64,000 nucleotides of DNA from assembly GCF_018390735.1 (NCBI RefSeq), contig NZ_JAHBCL010000004.1:62001-126000 (forward strand), written 5' to 3'. Below, piece after piece: positions 7,497 to 35,202 of the stretch. This DNA is from Fusibacter paucivorans (lineage in GTDB: Bacteria; Bacillota; Clostridia; Peptostreptococcales; Acidaminobacteraceae). Made by a program: the position numbers and the translations under genes. Positions within the stretch are counted from its first letter, which is position 1. Each line of letters starts with the position of its first letter. The notes under the pieces were generated by a model, which saw only the letters and a program-made list of their open reading frames with translations, was not told the DNA's origin and ran no database searches.

Positions 7497-7765
7497 AATA
7501 AAAAGACCCATCCATCCCGTTAGGGACGAATGGACCGCGTTACCACCCTATTTTTACGGCAATTGCCGTAACACTCAAGCCCATTAACGGCGGGAACCGA
7601 GTTTTCCTAATTGCTCTCAGAAAACTGTCTCAGAAGCGACCTTCCGCATTAACAGCCAAACGGCATTTTCAGCACTCGTTCCATTGAAAGCATTCAACAG
7701 CTCCAGATCCCGTCTCTCTTATGGTGTATTTGCGTACTCCTCTTCGTCTCAGACACATATCAAAT
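7497..7765 (-). promoter_or_regulatory. T-box riboswitch leader of valS-folC
   Basis: On the minus strand AGGGTGGTAACGCGGTCC (7533-7550) is the conserved T-box that binds the uncharged tRNA acceptor end. Next comes a competing terminator, a stem of CCATTCGTCCC with GGGATGGATGG and then TTTTTATTTTTT. Upstream lies about 200 nt for Stem I, with AGAGAG-type bulge sequence. A GTC valine codon at 7638-7640 is a plausible specifier on the 3' side of Stem I; I did not fold it. In this family, uncharged tRNA-Val stabilises the antiterminator and allows readthrough into valS. Confidence 0.92.
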
Positions 7766-24065: not shown

Positions 24066-25769
24066 ATGATACTCAATGATCTCATCGTCAACAGAGTAAT
24101 GATGGACGATGCTTTCCAGTGCATCTCAGAGGGGACCATCAAGGCAACTGATGAAGAAATCATTCTCATAACGGTCAGAAGACCTGAAAAAATCAGCAGT
24201 GCCACTAAACATGTACTGCGAAATCGTCTTCATAATCTCAAAGATATATTCGAATTCAACCAGCAGCTTTTCGTCGTTCTTAACAATCTACAAGGCTATG
24301 AACTTGATCAATATCTCGATAATCAACAGCTTTCCTATGATCGCCGAATCTATTTGTGTTATGAAATGCTGAAAGTCATTTACAGATACGATGCTTTTTC
24401 TGATAATATCAAGTATCAGCTCATCGCCCTGCCGCAATGGCGCGTCGCTGACGACGTTCTAATGCTTCGGGAAATTATCCATTTGGGTGAAGAGGGGAAC
24501 TATACGCCTAGACATTTCTACGCTCAAATTGGGCTGTTGATGGAAAAAATATTAGCCTCCAAGAATGAGCATCACCGTCAGTTCATGGATAATCTCATAT
24601 TGGGAAATGTTTCATATCCATCTCTCGACGTGCTCATCCGGCATTTCAAGGATATTTTTATCTATGAGAAACCTGAGGCAATAGAGTCCATTCCATTTGA
24701 ATATCATCTCACCTTTTCCGTCTCCAACGACAGTGTCATCGCTGAAAGCGCTTCGCTAAATGACAGGTCAGACACTATCAATACAGCAATCACGGGGATA
24801 GATGAATCCAGCGATAATACCGTGATGCAAGATGGCTCGGAGGCAGAGGCAGTTAACGATGACAGCGTGGAGCAAGATGTTTTGGAGGCAGAGGCAGCTG
24901 ACGATGACAGCGTGGAGCAAGATGTTTTGGAGGCAGAGGCAGCTGACGATGACAGCGTGATGCAAGACGTTTTGGAGACAGAGGCAGCTGACGATGATAC
25001 CATGTTGCAAGATGTTTTGGAGGCAGAGGCTGCTGACGATGATACCATGCTGCAAGATGTTTTGGAGGCAGAGGCTGCTGACGATGATACCGTGAGGCAA
25101 GATATTTCGGAGACAGATAAAAACGATGAAGGTGCCGCAGTTTCTGACACGGATGAGATCACCACCAACACCGTCTTCTCAACGGGCAGTACAATGGCTA
25201 AAGCTGAAACAGCGACGGCATCGCTTTCATGTGATAGCATAGAAGAATCTGAACCTGTTCTAGACTTCCTAAGTACCGAACTTCCCGATTTCTGCGAGCT
25301 CTCACCTGCCGAAGATCCTTTTGAAGCATCTGCTAAACCATCCTATGATGCGCCACTCAAGCAGAAAAACAGGCCGGAGGAAATGCAAACATCTGAACCC
25401 GAAATGTCAAAATCTTGGCAAGCCTTTATTTTTCCAGTTGCAATGACGCTGATTTTTATCGCAGTAATCGGTTTTGGCATTAAAAGTTTCTTTTTTAAGC
25501 CTGAAATTTTTGAAGCCTCTTATCGTATCGAAACACTTTCTGATGATCGTGTCGCCTTTATTAATACCAGTGCGTGCAGCAAGCCAATCGAATCGTGTGA
25601 ATGGTCTGTCTATTACAACGATCAGCTTATTCAAAGCTTTATCACTGATAATCTTTATCCAATATTTGATACTGTCGGTGAATATACGATTTCACTTCGC
25701 ATCATGGATTCCGATGGCAACTGGAGTGACACCTACACCGAAGTTTATCCATATGACCGCTCGCAGTAA
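24066..25769 (+). CDS. Membrane protein with acidic tandem repeats and extracytoplasmic PKD-like domain
   Basis: 567 residues, ATG behind AGGGGGA. Residues 1-210 are cytoplasmic and alpha/beta; their order (FNQQLFVVLNNLQGYELDQYL, then a helical part) loosely recalls a protein-kinase fold lacking catalytic residues, which I offer only as a possibility. Residues 253-357 are seven acidic 15-residue repeats. One membrane helix lies at about 451-477. The last 85 residues resemble a PKD/Ig-like domain (VAFINTS, GEYTISLRIMDSDGNWSDTY). With no N-terminal signal, the N-terminal part is in the cytoplasm and the PKD-like part outside. Partner and function unknown; monocistronic. Confidence 0.72.
   Translation: MILNDLIVNRVMMDDAFQCISEGTIKATDEEIILITVRRPEKISSATKHVLRNRLHNLKDIFEFNQQLFVVLNNLQGYELDQYLDNQQLSYDRRIYLCYEMLKVIYRYDAFSDNIKYQLIALPQWRVADDVLMLREIIHLGEEGNYTPRHFYAQIGLLMEKILASKNEHHRQFMDNLILGNVSYPSLDVLIRHFKDIFIYEKPEAIESIPFEYHLTFSVSNDSVIAESASLNDRSDTINTAITGIDESSDNTVMQDGSEAEAVNDDSVEQDVLEAEAADDDSVEQDVLEAEAADDDSVMQDVLETEAADDDTMLQDVLEAEAADDDTMLQDVLEAEAADDDTVRQDISETDKNDEGAAVSDTDEITTNTVFSTGSTMAKAETATASLSCDSIEESEPVLDFLSTELPDFCELSPAEDPFEASAKPSYDAPLKQKNRPEEMQTSEPEMSKSWQAFIFPVAMTLIFIAVIGFGIKSFFFKPEIFEASYRIETLSDDRVAFINTSACSKPIESCEWSVYYNDQLIQSFITDNLYPIFDTVGEYTISLRIMDSDGNWSDTYTEVYPYDRSQ
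24822..25136 (+). repeat. Seven tandem 45-bp repeats in coding sequence
   Basis: Each unit encodes a variant of VEQDVLEAEAADDDS. The outer copies have drifted (for example VRQDISETDKNDEGA), and the inner five are nearly identical in DNA, a sign of recent expansion. Length changes keep the frame. Confidence 0.92.
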
Positions 25770-26013: not shown

Positions 26014-26769
26014 ATGACTAGCCTTTTAGGCATTATGCGAAAAACAATTCAAGACTATGCGCTTATTCAGGAAGGAGACCGCGTCGCCGTCGGCCTTTCA
26101 GGCGGCAAAGACAGTATGGCGCTGCTTTATTTACTGGCGCGCTTCCAGACCTTTAGCCCCTTTAAATTTCATCTTGAAGCGATTACAGTAGACATGGGTT
26201 TCAACAACTTTGACCTGTCAGGCGCTAAATCATTCTGCGAGAAGCTCGGCATACCCTATACGGTTGTCGAGACAGAGATTGCCAAGGTCGTCTTCGAGAT
26301 TCGCGATGAAAAAAATCCCTGTGCACTTTGTGCCAATATGCGCCGAGGTGTACTCGCCGACACGATGAACCAACGTGGACTCAATATTTTGGCGTTAGGA
26401 CATCATGCCGATGATGCACTGACCACACTTTTTCTAAATATGCTCTATGCGGGAAAACTCAATACGCTGGAATACAAATCATATCTCTCACGTACAGATG
26501 TTCACGTCATTAGACCCTTCTTAGATGCTTCTGAAGCCCAAGTCATTAGTACGGTCCAGAAAGAGCATATTCCCGTTTTTAAAAGTCCCTGTCCAGTGGA
26601 CAAACATACAAAGCGTGAAGAAATCGGTGATTTTCTTAAAACAATTTACAAGGATCTCCCGCACAGCCGAAAAAATATTTTAACAGCAATGCGCAATGAA
26701 AACCAATGCAACCTTTTTAAAAACAAAAAAATACCTTCACCTAAAAAGACATCAAAACCAACAGCATAA
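26014..26769 (+). CDS. TtcA-family tRNA sulfurtransferase (PP-loop ATPase)
   Basis: 251 residues. The PP-loop is SGGKDS (residues 29-34). Two cysteines in CALC (Cys103, Cys106) and one in SPCPVDKHTKR match the three cysteines that hold a [4Fe-4S] cluster in TtcA-type enzymes. LGHHADDALTTLFLN is the second conserved motif. TtcA makes 2-thiocytidine at position 32 of tRNA; related enzymes thiolate other positions, so the exact site is not certain. Spacing to the upstream gene and a terminator between them suggest a separate transcript. The C-terminus is Lys-rich. Confidence 0.86.
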   Translation: MTSLLGIMRKTIQDYALIQEGDRVAVGLSGGKDSMALLYLLARFQTFSPFKFHLEAITVDMGFNNFDLSGAKSFCEKLGIPYTVVETEIAKVVFEIRDEKNPCALCANMRRGVLADTMNQRGLNILALGHHADDALTTLFLNMLYAGKLNTLEYKSYLSRTDVHVIRPFLDASEAQVISTVQKEHIPVFKSPCPVDKHTKREEIGDFLKTIYKDLPHSRKNILTAMRNENQCNLFKNKKIPSPKKTSKPTA

Positions 26770-27258: not shown

Positions 27259-28320
27259 TTACGTTTTAGTCATATTTTTGTACATATTTCCATGCATTAT
27301 GTCGACATAACTTTCTATACGCTGTGACAAATCATCGTATTTTGCCAAGTCATTCGGGTGATTGGCCAACAGTGTAAATGCAAACTGCGGCCAAAGCCTA
27401 AATCCCTTATTAACGTTGAGCGCACCGATTAATTGTCCCGCAACAGCATCATTGCCGGAATTGGCAGAGACAATCACGGCTGCAAGATATTTATCATAAA
27501 ACGACATGTTACGGTATAGCGCCGTCATTCGATTAATAACCGCCATCAGCTTTGCAGAGATCGAATCATTGTAATTTGGGCATACCCAAAGGACAACATC
27601 AGCTGCTTCAAGCGCCGGAAATAGGTCTTCTACAACAATTCCGCCATAAAAACATCGTTTCTCTTTCGCAAAATACAGACAGGTTTCATAGGGACAGCCA
27701 TAACAGTCATAGATTTTGCCCTCATCTACATGAAGCTCATCAATGATGAGTCGATCGCCCATTTGTGCTGTTAACTGCTGTCGAATCGCATGCCAAAGCC
27801 TCAGTGTCGTAGACATATCAACCTGTCCGGCGTGAAGCGCCAACAATTTAAGCGTTTTCTTCTGAAGCATCTGATAATCACCCAGTCTCTGTGTTAAACG
27901 CCTCAACTGTCCTTCACAAGCCGCCTCAAGTGTACAATTTTCCGCTGTGCTTCGCGTTTTAAAGTTTACTAGACCAGGCAGAATCTCCACTGCAGGATGG
28001 CCAATAAAACTGCCCCCCATGCGGTTAACCGTATAAATAAACTTTTTAATAAAAGTTTTCGTATAGTCAATGCTTTGAGCATAAACAACCAAAGCACAGA
28101 CACTGCTTTCAAAGGCCCGTTCACCATTGCGCTGAAATGCCTCGCATAAGCGTTCATGAACCGCTGTATTCTCACCAAGCGCATCCAGTTCAACAAAAAA
28201 CAGTCGTTTAACCATGCCGCTGTCGTCAACAGTGTTAGCCATTGCTGCATAATTTGCCAGCAATTCATGATACGGTATTGTTTGATCGTTTATAAATCGC
28301 TCATACTGTATTGTTCCCAT
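27259..28320 (-). CDS. Flavodoxin-like / NAD(P)H-dependent FMN reductase-like protein
   Basis: 353 residues. The C-terminal 200 residues resemble the FMN_red/flavodoxin-like fold: LKLLALHAGQ, then CYGCPYETCLYFAKEKRCFYGG, then VVLWVCPNYNDSISAKLMAVINRM and AVIVSANSG. The Cys cluster (CxxCxxxxC...C) recalls iron-sulfur flavoproteins. The N-terminal 150 residues form a second, unassigned domain with IDYTKTFIKKFIYTVNRMGG. The start overlaps the dehydrogenase-like gene by 31 bases, with a weak site (GGGA); a later start cannot be excluded. It is the last gene of the three-gene operon and probably a redox partner or quinone/flavin reductase. Confidence 0.7.
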   Translation of the reverse strand: MGTIQYERFINDQTIPYHELLANYAAMANTVDDSGMVKRLFFVELDALGENTAVHERLCEAFQRNGERAFESSVCALVVYAQSIDYTKTFIKKFIYTVNRMGGSFIGHPAVEILPGLVNFKTRSTAENCTLEAACEGQLRRLTQRLGDYQMLQKKTLKLLALHAGQVDMSTTLRLWHAIRQQLTAQMGDRLIIDELHVDEGKIYDCYGCPYETCLYFAKEKRCFYGGIVVEDLFPALEAADVVLWVCPNYNDSISAKLMAVINRMTALYRNMSFYDKYLAAVIVSANSGNDAVAGQLIGALNVNKGFRLWPQFAFTLLANHPNDLAKYDDLSQRIESYVDIMHGNMYKNMTKT

Positions 28321-29573
28321 AAATGTCCCAGCCTTTCATAAGCCGTTTCCAAACGCGTCATCAAAGCTGCGGGTACTTTTTGCATTTCAATTTCCGTCCC
28401 CGCTGCCGTCAGTCTATTGCGACAACCCCAGTATTGACCGCCTAAAAAGACCGCACTCTCATGCCATTCTCCCGCCAGTGTTTTGACAATACTGTAAGCT
28501 CCTGAAGAAATAGCTGGTGCCATAAACGGCTTATAACCTAATTCTCGAACAGCGAGATTGGCCTCGACAACTTCACGTGTCAGCGTTCGCGAATAAGTAT
28601 CATTATAAGCATTAATGTTATCTGCTATAACCAAATCCTGTCCATGCGGGCCAAAAGCTCTGCCCTCTTCAAACGCTGCACCGCCATAATGACGAGCACG
28701 CGCATACATGACGCCCAATCCATAACCACGAATCTGCTCCGGCAATAAACGAAAGCCGTATTGATCGTTCATATTGGCTTCAAAGGCAGCTTTGCATAGC
28801 AAATCAACGGGATCAGAAACAATACAGAAAAGGCCTTGATAGGCTTTCTCGCGCGCCTTATTCAGGTACATTTGAACCAGCGGTGCATTCTGCGAAAGCT
28901 GTATCATACGCACGTCCTGAACCTTCTCGCCTACTGGCGGCACATACTTCGATGCACAAAAGACAAAGACATCACTGTCAAAGAGTGCGTCAGCTTCAAT
29001 GGCATTGACTTTGATCGACGGATTTGGCAGCATTTGATTCAGCTCTGTTTCATAACGTTTTGCCTGTTTGGGATTTAAATCCCATATATTAAGGGTATGG
29101 ATAACATCGCCGCCAAGCAATTTGAGGCCGATTGCCAATGTCCCCCCGACATCTCCAAGTCCGAGCAGTGCGACGCTATATTTTTTTTTCGGAGAAAAAA
29201 CGGCACGTTCTAATGCCGCATGCGATAAAACAGCATCAGTCCCCATTGCCGTCAACCAGTTCAAGTTGACCGCACTCTGCCACTTTAGACACTTTAATGC
29301 AAGCCAATCGGATTCATTGACGTCGGGGAAGTAAGCGCTATCGATTATAAAGTCATCCACCGCTCCCACATGATAGCGCGCAATGCGCTCGTGGTTGAGT
29401 GCATTGGCAAAAACGGCATCAACTGCCACTTGACATTTGCTGCGGCAAATGTCGTCACGATAGAGCAAAATACTTGGCTTTTCTAAATCAACCGTTTGGG
29501 CACGCCTATCTGCCAGTCCGGCAATTGCCTCACTCGAAACCCACTGCAAGTCCATTAATTCATAAACGAACAT
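28290..29573 (-). CDS. Lactate/malate dehydrogenase-like NAD-dependent protein with N-terminal extension
   Basis: 427 residues, ATG behind AGGAGG. The Rossmann motif ALLGLGDVGGTLAIGL begins near residue 138, after an extra domain of about 130 residues not found in normal LDH/MDH (310-330 residues). Family features follow: VFVFCASKYVPPVGEK, IVSDPVDLLCKAAFEAN (compare TNPVD), and FGPHGQDLV in place of GEHGDS, keeping the catalytic-type His. Substrate residues differ, so the reaction is uncertain; a 2-hydroxyacid is the family expectation. It lies 8 bases after the giant fusion gene and overlaps the flavoprotein gene. Confidence 0.72.
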   Translation of the reverse strand: MFVYELMDLQWVSSEAIAGLADRRAQTVDLEKPSILLYRDDICRSKCQVAVDAVFANALNHERIARYHVGAVDDFIIDSAYFPDVNESDWLALKCLKWQSAVNLNWLTAMGTDAVLSHAALERAVFSPKKKYSVALLGLGDVGGTLAIGLKLLGGDVIHTLNIWDLNPKQAKRYETELNQMLPNPSIKVNAIEADALFDSDVFVFCASKYVPPVGEKVQDVRMIQLSQNAPLVQMYLNKAREKAYQGLFCIVSDPVDLLCKAAFEANMNDQYGFRLLPEQIRGYGLGVMYARARHYGGAAFEEGRAFGPHGQDLVIADNINAYNDTYSRTLTREVVEANLAVRELGYKPFMAPAISSGAYSIVKTLAGEWHESAVFLGGQYWGCRNRLTAAGTEIEMQKVPAALMTRLETAYERLGHLWEQYSMSDL

Positions 29574-29581
29574 AGCGCCTC

Positions 29582-32500
29582 CTATTTTCCGATATAAAAG
29601 TTTTTGAGCTTTCGAAGCTGCTCCAAGTCGTCCTTGAGGTATTCCGATGGCTTGACATTATTGGCATAGATAATATGATTCCCCTTATCCGGATAACGCG
29701 GCGTATTGAGCACCTCACCCAATCGGTCGATGGTCAGCAGTCTGTCATTTTCATACTCGTAGCCAACTTCTACTGCCGTCATAATTTCAATGGCATTCAT
29801 CAGCGCCACTTCCGAGAGATTATAAATCGCCTCCTTTGTCGTGCCGGCAATATAAGAAGCTGACGCGTACGGCAAAATCAAATTCACTGAATTGATCAGG
29901 TTGCTTTCGAGCATCTTTCCACGCCAGATGGCATCGCCATCAATGAACGGATAAAGTTTGCTCTCATAAAACCAAACTCTGATTTTAGGAATAAAGTATG
30001 CAGCATCGCAGTTCAATGACATTTCTTCGGCAATCTGCTTGCCGCTGCCCGACATGATGCCCACAATAAACTTTTGAATGTTCACGTCATTTGATCTAAA
30101 ATGCGGCTCCAGTGCCTTAATGCGATAGCCTTTGTTTAAAAGGTCATCCACTAAAATAACCGGACGGTTAAACGATTTAATCATCTTAATCTGATTTTCA
30201 ATGTCCAAGTAAAACGGATACTCCATGATATGGTGTTCTGAAAGGTCCGGCAGAAAGTATTTTTCCGCATGCAGTGCCTTGGTTACAGTATTCGGTAAAA
30301 TCGACTGTCTAAAGACGGCCCCAAACGGCACGCACATGGCTTCTCCCAATCGCCTTGGCTCTTGTGGAATCGGTGAGACAGCATTTTCATCACACACTTT
30401 CTTAATCAGCGTTTCATAAATCATCGCCCGGTCAAAATTTAGCACCAGATTGCCGGGATAGAGTTCAGTAAACGCTTTTTGAAGCCGTGCACGCGTCCGG
30501 CTCATCGCTTGCTGCACCTCTGGAATATTGCGATAGGGTTCTTTAAACATTGAATGAATATCGAGGTTTACCGTACAAGGTGATGACATATTCACGGCAA
30601 AGACGCTTTCCCCCGTCTTTTGTGATGAAATATTAACGAATCCCTGGATCTGCAAAACATCTACAATTTCTTTTGCTACCTGCGGCTTTAATGATTCCTT
30701 GTAAATGCAATAGGTGTAGTCTTGAGCCAGTGCATGCGCCAGCGTTTCTGTTAGAACAATTTGTTCCAAATTGCGCACATCCGCCCCTTTTTTCTTAACG
30801 ATACCATCAATCACCAGAATACGACCGACAGCATCATCACGGATATACTTGATAATGTGATTATCCTTGAACTCATTGTGAATGCCCGAAGCTCTCAGCC
30901 AGTGGCTAATCGCATAGGCAATGACTTCCTGACCCTTTTCGGCTCGTCTCAGCACAATGGCCCGAAAACCTTCCCGTTCGCTTAAATGCTGATATTTTAT
31001 CAGTTGCTCACTTCCATTGTCGTTTGTCGTCTCACCAATTAAATCTTTTAGGAACGCCGGTGACATCTCATCATAAACTGCCAGATTAATCGCCTTGCTG
31101 GACATGACGCGCTTGTACATGGGTTCGCGCTGGTAAAGGCTTTTTTCATAAATGTAATTCTGCGCCAACGGTTCGATCAGTGATGAAATATCCCTTTTTT
31201 CATCAATGTAATCGCGAATGAGCGTTGAGCTGATACTTTCGTAAACCTTTGGCAGCGTAACAATTTGAGAACTTGGATGCAGTCGCTCTAAACGTTCTTT
31301 TAAGCGCTTTTTCGCCTCTTTCGCGTAGTGAATACCCCCGCGTTCGTAAATGAGATGCGGGATATCATTAATCGTTGTATGTTCTTCGTAGCCATAGGCA
31401 GACGCATAAATAATGACATCGCTTCCCACGACGAGAAAGACTTCCGATTCCGGGAAAAGCTCTTTCAACAGTGCAAGATCATGCGGATTGGCAATGTTGA
31501 TTGAAATATCCCTTGGGAACGGAAAAACATCTATTTCACTGGCGACAGATTTCTTAATAATATTGCGTCGAATAAGATTTGGCTGTGTGTGCTTTGACCA
31601 AGAAAATTCGTCAACATAGAGCAGTACTTCAAAACCCTTGTCGCGAATATCTGTTGCTATTTGCTTGTGACTCAGTGTAAACGGATCAAATGCACCAGGG
31701 AAAAAAGCAATTTTATTGTGCGGCTTCAACGTCATTTTACCGTAAACATGCTGGTATTCATTGACAAAACGGTAAATATACTTGAGGCTCGCCGCGTTAT
31801 TATAAAAAATAATATCTTGTTCTTCGTCGGTATTGACCATCAGTGACATAATTTTTTTAATCGTAACACGGTAGAGGTACTCTTTTTTACGGAGTGCCAG
31901 TACGGGATCGTTAAAAATAGATTTTGCAATGACGTTAAACGCCACTTGGTTCACAAATCCCGAAGGATGGACAAAACCCGTAAAGAGAATGCCGAACATC
32001 CTGAGCACACGATGATCATGCCCTTCTTCCGTCTCTTCAAAGGCGTATTTATAATCTGCATAGCGACTAATGGCATGGCCAATCGTCCGTTCTATCAGCG
32101 ATATAAGTTTTTCATTGTTGGTGCTCATTTTCTTCTCAAAACTTTCGAGAATTTCATCCAGCTCTTTTGGTTTAATATGTAAAATGATCTTACCAAGATA
32201 GGGCGGGATGTATTTTGTAAATTCGTAGCTCTCCATTTCCAGTGCTCTCAGCAACTCAATGGTAATATCGTTTTTCTGTTCAAATGTCAAATGCGGTATC
32301 AATTCCAACAGCATCTTCCCCGCCGTATTGCGAACCGATTCGAGCGCACTGACCTTTAAGAGATTGCAGAGGTGCATCGCCATATAAAAATTGTTTTCAT
32401 AATCGTATAACAGCGTATTGCGAATCAGCAGTTCAATCTGAAATCGTTTGGCAATATCTAAAGTTGCCGTTTTGAGATTGCTCAGAAAGATATTAGACGT

Positions 32501-34483
32501 CAGCTGTAAATCACTCATGCAGATTCCCTTGAGCACTTCAACAGTCTGTTCATCTGTCCTAAGCTGTTCAGCAAGTTTCAGCCTCGCATAATTATCAGCT
32601 GGATTATCGTAAATTGCCGGAATATTTTCAAAGACGCGCGTAATATGGCACTGGGCAATCAGCGTTTCCGAAGCATAAGGCAAAATCGTATAAATCAAAT
32701 TATAAGCCCGTAAGCGCAACTTCATATCAGGATGATCCAAAAGACCGGATACAAAATTGAGTATTAGGAAGCGCTGTGCTTCATCAAATTCTTTAAACGG
32801 TAGAACGCGCGCTGCTTTGACGAGGTAAAACCGAATTTGTTCATCCTCGTTGTATGCCTCAAAATATGAGATAACAGTGGCGATGGCATCTTTGCGCTTT
32901 TCCAGTCCCTCAAGGGATTCAAAAAAGGTAAAGAGCATATCACGCAAACTGTAGCTGATGTATTTTTTGTGACGGTCAATAATTTTATTTTCTGGAAACA
33001 GAAAGCGTCTGACATAGGTATCAAACAATTTTAAGGCATCAAAATCCGTAGGCTTAATCATAACGCTTGGCGGCGTCTCCTTGCGAATTTCTTCATCGTA
33101 ATGCGCAATAATGACACCGATGAGTTCCGCACACTGTTTGCGAATATCTTCTTCCGGCGAAACCAGTTTTTCATATAAAAAATTAATGACAATCTGCTTT
33201 TGTTTTTGCGTCATGTAATTAAAGTACTCTTCTAAAATACCAATATATGCCCTGAGATTAGTCATATCACGGCTATTGCGCACCGGTTCCAGCATTTTGT
33301 TGAGTGACGTTTCATCTCTCAGTCGATGCAGCAGATTGATATTGTGTTCAATAGAGCTGTAGATAACGCTCTTCGTCACGGCAGCGCCCTGCAGCAATGC
33401 GAAATATTTTCGGTTTGGCCTGATTTGAGGATTGAGCGCCATAAACATCTCGCGTGAAATATCGACGCCTAGATCAATTAAATAATCTTCAAAATCCTTT
33501 AAGTAACGGTAAACACGCCTGTAGCGATCTTCTTTCGCTGCGTCGACGTTGTCGAGCTTCTCTAGAATAACATCGAAGGAAGCCTGTAAATCGTAGATTT
33601 TCATAACGCTCTTATTATCAACCTTCGCCGCTTTCACGCGAAAATCACTGTAAATGAGAATAAGCGATTCAATCGGCAGCGCCTCAAGCTCCAAATCCCA
33701 TGTGGAGTGGTTGATCGCCACATTCCGAATATAGACAATATCGTGTTTTTCAAACCACTCACCTGTATAGAAATAATGATAGTAGGCAACGCGCTTCATT
33801 TCGTCTGCTTTACAGCCGAATTTACCGATATCATGACCTGCTGCAGCGCCGGCAACCCTGCCAAGGTCAATGGGAAGTCCCGCATTTTTAAGCTGTCTCG
33901 CTACTTTCAGCGCCATAAAATGTACACCACAGATGTGGTCCAGCGTCGAATAGCCAATCACTTCTTGATTGAGCTTCATCATTTCATAAACAAACTCTTG
34001 ATAAAACGCTTTTTTAAACTGCAGATACTCACGCGGATCTTCCAGCGCTTGCGTTTCCTCTTCCGTCAATAATGTCAGCGGATATTTGCTTTGCCATGTT
34101 GAATCTGTCCCGCGCTGCTGATACTGCGATGCAACGCGCAGAATACGCAGGTATATCTCAGCCACGGGCGTAAACGCCGGATCAAGTGTTATCGAAACGG
34201 CTTCAGGAAATGAATAACTTAAACTATGATAATAGAAATATTGCAGCCACGGCACTTTCGGCAATGATTTACAAAGCATTGGCACGAGCGGTTCCATCAA
34301 CGCAAAAACATCTTTTGCGTGATAACGCTTCTCCCTGAGCATGTTATCGAGTCCCTTTTTAAAATGATTGCCCATGACATAGGCTTCGAGAACATCTTGA
34401 TTAAGTGCCATTTTCTTGATGAAACTGCGGTTTAATATCTCATGTGTAATATCTTCAAAGAATTGCTGTCTTAATGTCTGCAT
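29582..34483 (-). CDS. Giant multidomain protein: HD domain, helical region, NMNAT-like nucleotidyltransferase, GNAT-like and phosphoribosyltransferase-like segments
   Basis: 1633 residues, ATG behind AGAGGTGAGG, one uninterrupted frame. An N-terminal HD phosphohydrolase-like domain (about 180-320) has H..H217-D218 in AGHDIGKFG and NHSTWD. A long alpha-helical, HEAT-like region follows (about 380-900). FFPGAFDPFTLSHKQ (about 925-940) and ISSTLIRDYI (about 1083) are the motifs of NadD/cytidyltransferase enzymes, with LVVGSDVIIYAS between. About 1110-1300 resembles a GNAT acetyltransferase (tentative). VILVDDLLNKGYR (about 1440-1453) is a PRPP-loop motif of phosphoribosyltransferases. It may act in NAD or nucleotide metabolism; the true reaction is unknown. 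Confidence 0.75.
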   Translation of the reverse strand: MQTLRQQFFEDITHEILNRSFIKKMALNQDVLEAYVMGNHFKKGLDNMLREKRYHAKDVFALMEPLVPMLCKSLPKVPWLQYFYYHSLSYSFPEAVSITLDPAFTPVAEIYLRILRVASQYQQRGTDSTWQSKYPLTLLTEEETQALEDPREYLQFKKAFYQEFVYEMMKLNQEVIGYSTLDHICGVHFMALKVARQLKNAGLPIDLGRVAGAAAGHDIGKFGCKADEMKRVAYYHYFYTGEWFEKHDIVYIRNVAINHSTWDLELEALPIESLILIYSDFRVKAAKVDNKSVMKIYDLQASFDVILEKLDNVDAAKEDRYRRVYRYLKDFEDYLIDLGVDISREMFMALNPQIRPNRKYFALLQGAAVTKSVIYSSIEHNINLLHRLRDETSLNKMLEPVRNSRDMTNLRAYIGILEEYFNYMTQKQKQIVINFLYEKLVSPEEDIRKQCAELIGVIIAHYDEEIRKETPPSVMIKPTDFDALKLFDTYVRRFLFPENKIIDRHKKYISYSLRDMLFTFFESLEGLEKRKDAIATVISYFEAYNEDEQIRFYLVKAARVLPFKEFDEAQRFLILNFVSGLLDHPDMKLRLRAYNLIYTILPYASETLIAQCHITRVFENIPAIYDNPADNYARLKLAEQLRTDEQTVEVLKGICMSDLQLTSNIFLSNLKTATLDIAKRFQIELLIRNTLLYDYENNFYMAMHLCNLLKVSALESVRNTAGKMLLELIPHLTFEQKNDITIELLRALEMESYEFTKYIPPYLGKIILHIKPKELDEILESFEKKMSTNNEKLISLIERTIGHAISRYADYKYAFEETEEGHDHRVLRMFGILFTGFVHPSGFVNQVAFNVIAKSIFNDPVLALRKKEYLYRVTIKKIMSLMVNTDEEQDIIFYNNAASLKYIYRFVNEYQHVYGKMTLKPHNKIAFFPGAFDPFTLSHKQIATDIRDKGFEVLLYVDEFSWSKHTQPNLIRRNIIKKSVASEIDVFPFPRDISINIANPHDLALLKELFPESEVFLVVGSDVIIYASAYGYEEHTTINDIPHLIYERGGIHYAKEAKKRLKERLERLHPSSQIVTLPKVYESISSTLIRDYIDEKRDISSLIEPLAQNYIYEKSLYQREPMYKRVMSSKAINLAVYDEMSPAFLKDLIGETTNDNGSEQLIKYQHLSEREGFRAIVLRRAEKGQEVIAYAISHWLRASGIHNEFKDNHIIKYIRDDAVGRILVIDGIVKKKGADVRNLEQIVLTETLAHALAQDYTYCIYKESLKPQVAKEIVDVLQIQGFVNISSQKTGESVFAVNMSSPCTVNLDIHSMFKEPYRNIPEVQQAMSRTRARLQKAFTELYPGNLVLNFDRAMIYETLIKKVCDENAVSPIPQEPRRLGEAMCVPFGAVFRQSILPNTVTKALHAEKYFLPDLSEHHIMEYPFYLDIENQIKMIKSFNRPVILVDDLLNKGYRIKALEPHFRSNDVNIQKFIVGIMSGSGKQIAEEMSLNCDAAYFIPKIRVWFYESKLYPFIDGDAIWRGKMLESNLINSVNLILPYASASYIAGTTKEAIYNLSEVALMNAIEIMTAVEVGYEYENDRLLTIDRLGEVLNTPRYPDKGNHIIYANNVKPSEYLKDDLEQLRKLKNFYIGK

Positions 34484-34602
34484 ACCTCACCTCTTGTCGC
34501 ATGTCTTAATGTTATTATCACATATCCAAAAGTCGAATGCAATGCGGCGGCACTTAACTCAAAGTGCAATTGTGCCGATATAAATACAAAGGAGGTGTTA
34601 CC

Positions 34603-35202
34603 ATGAGCCCAAGCATCGAGCGCTATCAGCGAAAAAGCGCCGGTATTCAGCCGACGATACGCGTTAAGAAACCCATTTACGTTTCTGCCACAGCCCAAAA
34701 ATCCGAATCGCATTTTTCACCGGACGAACATGCCGGCAATGAGCAGCGCGCCATGGATCATTTTTATGAACAAGTGCACAATCTCATGGCCTCCTACCTG
34801 CGTCTGGACGAAGCCGGCGAACGAAACACCTACTATAAGAACCATAAAGCAGAGGCACTGGCAGGCGGCAATGAACTCGTAAATGCCATCAATGACCTTT
34901 TAACCCGCGCTTCAGAATATGACCGACAGCACGACACGTATTATAATTTTCTCATCATGAGCCTCCTGCACGATAATACAGGCAGTCTCACTGCCATTGG
35001 TATTGAAATTAATCGTTATGAACGCGTTTACTTGCTCAAACACACTTTTTATAACGCCTTGACGACTCAACCTGATCTCTTTGAATTCCTGTTTAAACCC
35101 CATGACGGTCTCATTGATCGCTTAGATCAATTAAATCTTAAACTGCTTAAGACAAACGATTCATCAATGCGTTCCGGGCAAATCATTGATCTAAAAGGTT
35201 AA
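34603..35202 (+). CDS. Hypothetical protein, unrecognised
   Basis: 199 residues from ATG 34603, set by AAAGGAGGTG; a longer frame to 34564 lacks a site. No signal peptide or membrane helix. The first 50 residues are basic and probably disordered; the rest is helical, with a repeated pattern of Leu and Tyr (VHNLMASYLRLDEAGERNTY, later FYNALTTQPDLFEFLF). I do not recognise a family. It is divergent from the giant fusion gene, about 120 bases away, and ends in a strong hairpin. No function is proposed. Confidence 0.6.
   Translation: MSPSIERYQRKSAGIQPTIRVKKPIYVSATAQKSESHFSPDEHAGNEQRAMDHFYEQVHNLMASYLRLDEAGERNTYYKNHKAEALAGGNELVNAINDLLTRASEYDRQHDTYYNFLIMSLLHDNTGSLTAIGIEINRYERVYLLKHTFYNALTTQPDLFEFLFKPHDGLIDRLDQLNLKLLKTNDSSMRSGQIIDLKG

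Follow-up and report, generated by a model that had tools for sequence, protein, structure and literature searches.

The window analysed here is a stretch of 64,000 nucleotides from Fusibacter paucivorans (contig NZ_JAHBCL010000004.1, positions 62,001 to 126,000), and our subject is a set of three adjacent genes on its minus strand that we call A, B and C. Gene A encodes a very long protein in which an HD phosphohydrolase region, a helical scaffold, a nucleotidyltransferase resembling NadD, a GNAT fold and a phosphoribosyltransferase (PRTase) fold share one chain. Genes B and C encode an oxidoreductase of the lactate/malate dehydrogenase (LDH/MDH) superfamily and a cysteine-rich flavoprotein. 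The genes and domains, with the evidence that defines each, are as follows.

29582-34483, minus strand: gene A, a 1633-residue HD-HEAT-NMNAT-GNAT-PRTase fusion (single open reading frame, ORF; full-length homologues)
33464-34066, minus strand: HD phosphohydrolase region of A, residues 140-340 approximately (PF01966, NF045665, TIGR00295 and six conserved residues)
31754-33241, minus strand: helical HEAT-repeat region of A, residues 415-910 (PF02985 in 30 of 38 members, best E value 3.1e-7)
31127-31726, minus strand: NadD/NMNAT-like nucleotidyltransferase of A, residues 920-1119 (NadD profiles, structural model and fold match)
30581-31099, minus strand: GNAT-fold domain of A, residues 1129-1301 (fold match; acetyl-CoA motif not recognisable)
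29966-30595, minus strand: type I PRTase-fold domain of A, residues 1297-1506 (model, Foldseek, VIA and PF00156)
28290-29573, minus strand: gene B, 427 residues, LDH/MDH-superfamily oxidoreductase with an N-terminal extension of about 130 residues (PF00056 and conserved residues)
27259-28320, minus strand: gene C, 353 residues, FMN_red flavoprotein with a CX2CX4CX8C motif and a conserved but unmatched N-terminal half (PF03358)

Eight bases separate A from B, and B overlaps C by 31 bases. The gene upstream (34564-35202) is divergent from A and a PP-loop ATPase gene (26014-26769) is convergent with C; by strand, both flanking genes belong to other transcription units. An initial annotation of this DNA had described the three ORFs with their short gap and overlap, had read A as one uninterrupted frame, and had pointed to four motifs in it; all of this is borne out, with H217-D218, GAFDPFTLSH at residues 930-939, ISSTLIR at 1084-1090 and VILVDDLLNKGYR at 1442-1454. 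The motifs are not chance occurrences, because full-length homologues sharing 32-67% identity keep them. Residue conservation was assessed over 67 A proteins (that of the window, 46 others and 20 from a later set), 64 B proteins and 52 C proteins.

The best profile matches of A are to NadD. The window protein matches CTP_transf_like at E 2.8e-5 and the NadD profile TIGR00482 at E 1.6e-10, and the latter also matches 36 of 38 A relatives. Residues 905-1633 were modelled with AlphaFold (predicted local distance difference test, pLDDT, 88; predicted template modelling score, pTM, 0.86), and the NadD-like part aligns with NadD 4rpi at a VIA Z score of 19.6 (187 aligned residues, 2.5 Å). Residues F932-D933-P934 and H939 are invariant in all 67 proteins, and S1085, S1086 and R1090 are found in 65. 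Equally invariant are D958, E959 and W962, which belong to a consensus DEFSW (958-962) at the position of the substrate loop of NadD, where the pattern is P-P-H-R/K, as is also visible in the NadD alignments made here. The window protein scores 41.4 bits against a curated NadD cut-off of 112.45, below the family threshold, and the A-type matches listed lie at 31-60 bits. Of 34 genomes that carry A, 32 also encode a separate, canonical NadD above that cut-off, the exceptions being G350 and G581; the genome of the window has an ordinary nadD followed by yqeK (L002). A is therefore not the NadD of these cells.

The HD part is recognised more readily in the family than in the window protein. Of 38 relatives, 36 match PF01966 (E up to 0.1; best 2e-7), 37 match NF045665 (best 4.7e-7) and 29 match TIGR00295, whereas the window protein alone reaches E 0.04-0.19 and 12.5 bits, under the Pfam cut-off of 22. 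The H..HD..D metal-ligand pattern of HD phosphohydrolases is present, and the six residues of metal-binding type (H183, H217, D218, H236, H259 and D280) are invariant across the aligned A proteins (67/67). Identification of this part as YqeK is unsupported: hhalign against the YqeK of the same genome, a single target sequence, gave a probability of 1.3%.

Towards the C-terminus, the GNAT part matches 1wwz by VIA (Z 14.8, 146 aligned residues, 2.8 Å). A second AlphaFold model, of residues 1296-1633 (pLDDT 91.7), holds the PRTase part. Its 50 listed Foldseek matches are uracil, adenine, xanthine, orotate and related PRTases or PRTase-fold regulators, apart from a few uninformative titles, with E values from 1.6e-5, and its top VIA match is the orotate PRTase OPRT 4rv4 (Z 11.1, 116 aligned residues, 2.7 Å). 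By sequence the likeness is fainter. Of the 38 members, 16 match PF00156 weakly (E up to 0.1; best 0.0034), and the window protein itself gives no match even at E 1; in a profile-profile test the loop region that would bind phosphoribosyl pyrophosphate (PRPP) aligned with 65.7% probability over 37 columns, against less than 1% for five decoy profiles. D1446, the first acid of this loop, is invariant (67/67); position 1447 is D in 49 proteins, N in 13, T in 4 and E in 1. A search of 299 genomes of the phylum (E up to 0.01) found no stand-alone form of the PRTase module beyond the fusions. Structure prediction and piecewise domain searches thus match the NadD, GNAT and PRTase folds, and every domain named in the initial annotation, including the HD and helical parts, is recovered by profile or by fold.

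The calls of an LDH-like protein and a flavoprotein also hold, both above their cut-offs. B matches PF00056, the LDH NAD-binding domain, at 31.5 bits (cut-off 27), and glycines 140 and 143 are present in 64 of 64 sequences. In standard LDH numbering the catalytic residues are N140, the D168-H195 pair, R109 and R171. Mapped through the hmmsearch alignment, B keeps the equivalents of R109 (R222), R171 (R292) and H195 (H310) but departs from LDH at N140 (D254) and D168 (M289). All five residues are invariant in the 64 B proteins, which leaves the LDH catalytic set incomplete; against the L-LDH equivalog B scores 32.4 bits, where the cut-off is 303.6. These two replacements suggest that the substrate may be something other than a simple 2-oxo acid. 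No relative of the N-terminal part of B was found among the other parts of the system. C matches PF03358 at 56.6 bits (cut-off 24), as do all 33 C members searched, and its four cysteines are invariant in 52 of 52 sequences. Its N-terminal half (27862-28320, about 150 residues) contains invariant K88, G102, E112 and N119; no convincing Pfam, PDB or internal-repeat match was found for it, the PDB profile search with C returning nothing at E up to 0.1 and C showing no internal duplication.

Across wider samples A is patchy in the class and found in about half of the sampled genomes of the order of the window. A sample of 299 genomes from across the phylum has A in 4 (E up to 1e-20), the class has it in 32 of 391 sampled genomes, and the order in 131 of 247 genomes and 75 of 122 genera (E up to 1e-100), each of these counts including the genome of the window. 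Another order has A in 62 of 225 genomes, and another class in 8 of 46, all within one family (f58). Named carriers are Fusibacter bizertensis and Acetoanaerobium noterae, alongside metagenome bins. The A. noterae sequence that carries A-B-C, NZ_CP154629.1 (L075), is labelled a plasmid, and its 2.63-Mb size looks chromosomal. A few copies of A have in-frame stops, 16 in G891:C1:2256535-2260539 and one or two in G810, G904, G988, G1049 and G1100, which we attribute to decay or sequencing errors.

The genes that flank the set vary between lineages. In 37 of the 42 loci of the first set, B lies after A in the same orientation, within 310 bp in 35 and with a gap below 25 bp in 31. In the remaining two (L041, 7918-13236; L042, 12243-17446) ammonium-transporter and glutamate-synthase-type genes stand between A and B. 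The five loci without B comprise two contig ends, one of which (L045) still carries the first 94 residues of B, and three second copies. The genomes with these solo copies hold another A with B and C, split over two contigs in G488. The solo copies themselves (L052, L060 and L070) have no B or C nearby and are divergent from a gene of cluster c29, whose member in L052 is an APH-family phosphotransferase (PF01636, E 9.3e-20). B is in turn followed by C in 36 loci of the first set. The 20 later loci, which represent 20 genera of a single order, all have B next to A, and 12 of them have C next to B.

Co-occurrence extends beyond adjacency. Within the class, 30 of the 32 genomes with A also have C, which no other genome has at E <1e-20; at E <1e-120 it is found in 30 of 391, all of them A-bearing, with two further weak matches (E about 7e-15). 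The A and C counts apparently refer to the same 391 genomes, which bear the same handles. The two A genomes without C are 84% and 82% complete and have A cut by a contig end. In the distant family f58, B and C are present in 7 of the 8 A genomes, the eighth (G707) being 79% complete, and three of them (G708, G709 and G711) hold A and B-C on different contigs with all three genes kept; in six A-negative genomes of the family that were checked B was found in none and a partial C in one (G712, 68% complete). Over 39 loci the mirror-distance Spearman correlation is 0.83 for A-C, 0.63 for B-C and 0.51 for A-B, and the low last figure may come from the variable, untrimmed N-terminus of B. The initial annotation had asked whether the three genes stay together across Clostridia: B nearly always does, and C mostly, with the exceptions weighed below. 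Neither of the outcomes that it had set against itself, missing folds or an unconserved link to the two redox genes, has occurred, because all of the domains are present and the link is conserved.

We propose, with a probability of roughly 40%, that A, B and C work together in Clostridia as a single biochemical system for the synthesis, editing or recycling of a small molecule linked to a nucleotide, be it a cofactor or the precursor or damaged form of one. A is read as both maker and editor because it has, by motif, both kinds of active site that are joined in NadD-YqeK fusions, together with a PRTase fold. The NadD-like domain would transfer a nucleotidyl group from a nucleoside triphosphate (NTP) to a phosphorylated acceptor other than nicotinate mononucleotide (NaMN), and the HD domain would hydrolyse the same class of product, in proofreading or turnover as in those fusions. 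The PRTase domain would make or bind a PRPP-derived nucleotide, and the HEAT and GNAT parts would hold the catalytic parts together. B may be an NAD(P)-dependent oxidoreductase of a group resembling a 2-oxo or 2-hydroxy acid (or an imine or amine), C may give or take electrons, and the target of both would be the compound or its acid part. The system is real, conserved and built from known folds. Beyond what is observed directly, namely the folds and profiles, the conserved residues, the co-occurrence and the separate NadD in nearly all carriers, we infer part of the mechanism: the substrates, the order of the steps, catalysis by the PRTase domain and the place of B and C in the pathway of A. 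The earlier idea of an undescribed nucleotide-cofactor pathway thus remains, by inference, the best reading. In a narrower form, which we regard as unlikely as it stands, the product of A-B-C would be a hitherto undescribed redox or one-carbon coenzyme that contains a nucleotide and resembles nicotinamide, flavin or pterin. Many Clostridia would use it, the PRTase and nucleotidyltransferase domains building it, the HD domain editing it, and B and C reducing or using it. Literature searches for the gene set or its parts turned up no description of it; they covered open-licence text only, so this does not establish absence.

Several observations weigh against this proposal. A canonical PRPP loop has two acids and then T-G-x-T; in A the second position is N or T in 17 of 67 proteins and K-G-x-R replaces T-G-x-T. 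Catalysis by this domain is uncertain because of these two departures, and the domain may only bind PRPP or a nucleotide. The logic of phosphoribosyl transfer plus adenylyl transfer in the initial annotation keeps its domains, with the phosphoribosyl transfer in doubt. Moreover, hhalign of the PRTase part to single PRTase sequences gave only 1-17%, a PDB profile search with it returned nothing better than E 0.16 (best PRTase, E 0.26), and a search of the PDB with the HD profile gave nothing significant (best E 0.13). The GNAT acetyl-CoA motif, (Q/R)xxGx(G/A), is not recognisable by eye in a consensus of 47 sequences. At the level of the locus, A exists as solo second copies in three genomes and 8 of the 20 later loci lack C next to B, a count of adjacency only. 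Nor is there a riboswitch common to the 32 loci scanned, where the only elements found were tRNAs and, in L013, a flavin mononucleotide (FMN) riboswitch; L042 also has an FMN riboswitch and tRNAs, and in both loci the riboswitch lies near a ribU-like gene upstream of A.

Some of these features would be expected if A were a sensor or regulator, an explanation that we consider possible, if on balance unlikely. Opposed nucleotidyltransferase and HD activities would then read NAD, PRPP or a nucleotide and control B, C or the wider redox state, after the model of GlnD and RelA/SpoT, which are regulators with opposed activities, and the PRTase and GNAT parts would be ligand-binding remnants. The atypical PRTase loop, the unrecognisable GNAT motif, the long HEAT scaffold, the solo copies and the occasional separation of A from B-C all fit. 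Counter to this, the Pfam matches of A include no DNA-binding or receiver domain, the NadD-like and HD residues are conserved as in an enzyme, and the order A-B(-C) is tight.

The neighbourhoods raise the alternative that A-B-C serves the synthesis or repair of a modified pterin or folate-type coenzyme, by a logic like that of methanopterin and F420, in which a PRPP-derived part and a hydroxy acid are joined to a nucleotide or pterin. Genes for folE, folP, folB, folK, dihydrofolate reductase (DHFR) or folD lie in the flanks of 10 of 53 A/B/C loci from five genera (L044; L055; L056-L057; L054 and L074; L105 and L127-L129) and in none of 60 control windows. The controls were 19.5-kb windows at fixed coordinates in 14 A-bearing genomes; the loci average about 16 kb, and some represent two places in one genome. 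In four loci of one genus the gene directly after C, in the same orientation, encodes DHFR, with a 4-base overlap in L127 and L128; in L044 C is directly followed by MoeA, a second moeA, MoaA and MoaC. A small HD-domain gene (L056, 16471-16944; PF01966, E 1.2e-14) lies inside the folE/folB cluster of that locus and has relatives (cluster c30) in L055 and L057. However, the query set was chosen after DHFR and fol genes had been noticed in several loci, so that the theme is post hoc, and the loci are not independent. The same queries and threshold later found folate genes at 3 of 20 loci (L200, L202 and L206), and inherited synteny is possible there because all 20 come from the order of L055-L057, which already held positives. 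Such genes are lacking at 43 of the 53 loci, including all seven of the Fusibacter type (L006-L012), one of which is 96% identical to the gene of the window. Other neighbours are glutamate dehydrogenase (six loci), serine dehydratase, an FMN riboswitch with a ribU-like gene, and a CoaBC-like gene. We take the neighbourhood as a weak, partly post hoc hint of a pterin or folate link and judge that explanation improbable.

That A serves ordinary NAD biosynthesis or salvage, as a variant NadD with its own PRTase, is very improbable. Its best profile matches and closest fold are indeed those of NadD, but it scores far below the separate NadD of the same genomes, has the invariant DEFSW in place of the substrate loop, and carries a PRTase of type I, whereas nicotinate PRTases are type II. 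A role in ordinary NAD synthesis, to which the initial annotation had tentatively linked A, is largely refuted on the first of these grounds. A defence or mobile-element system, which a large multidomain protein with nucleotide-active domains and a patchy distribution in the class might suggest, is scarcely credible: a PADLOC search matched none of A, B and C at E up to 0.01, phage records gave no match, one viral-contig scan confirmed no relative, and A is present in about half of the sampled genomes of an order.

Two further features of the window deserve record. A 567-residue ORF (24066-25769) has a translation with near-identical acidic repeats (AADDD..QDVLEAE) and a hydrophobic segment near its C-terminus, and a T-box leader, the only element that the riboswitch and leader scan found in the window, lies at 7519-7759 on the minus strand (99.4 bits; Rfam gathering score 93).

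A protein of five folds and about 1600 residues, present in around half of the sampled genomes of one order, marks a sizeable blank in clostridial metabolism, and comparison with known systems helps to define it. B shares with L-lactate/malate dehydrogenases (PF00056) the Rossmann domain and the R109, R171 and H195 equivalents, and differs in the N140-to-D and D168-to-M changes, the N-terminal extension and a score far below the cut-off. C resembles NADPH-dependent FMN reductases and iron-sulfur flavoproteins (PF03358) in its FMN_red domain and four conserved cysteines; the iron-sulfur flavoprotein motif is CX2CX2CX4-7C, in contrast to the CX2CX4CX8C of C in the window, and C has in addition its conserved N-terminal half. 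The PRTase part of A has the fold and first PRPP-loop acid of type I PRTases (APRT, OPRT and UPRT; PF00156) and departs from them in its K-G-x-R loop and variable second position. In the DVU_1551 family (NF045665) an NTP transferase is joined to an HD part of the kind that the HD region of A matches, although that transferase has a different fold from that of A. With NadD itself (TIGR00482, PF01467), A shares the fold and the FDPF...H and ISSTxIR motifs, and it is set apart by its low score, by DEFSW in the substrate-loop region and by the separate NadD of its carriers. Similar in design is the NadD-YqeK fusion (NF005519; PMC9426524), which likewise places a nucleotidyltransferase and an HD hydrolase on one chain; A scores 33.7 bits against its cut-off of 315, has its HD part about 700 residues upstream, and adds the PRTase, GNAT and HEAT parts. 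The NadD-fused YqeK domain of the minimal mycoplasma JCVI-Syn3A is reported to hydrolyse nicotinate adenine dinucleotide (NaAD) and its C and U analogues and to proofread (PMC9426524), a precedent that points to a concrete activity for A.

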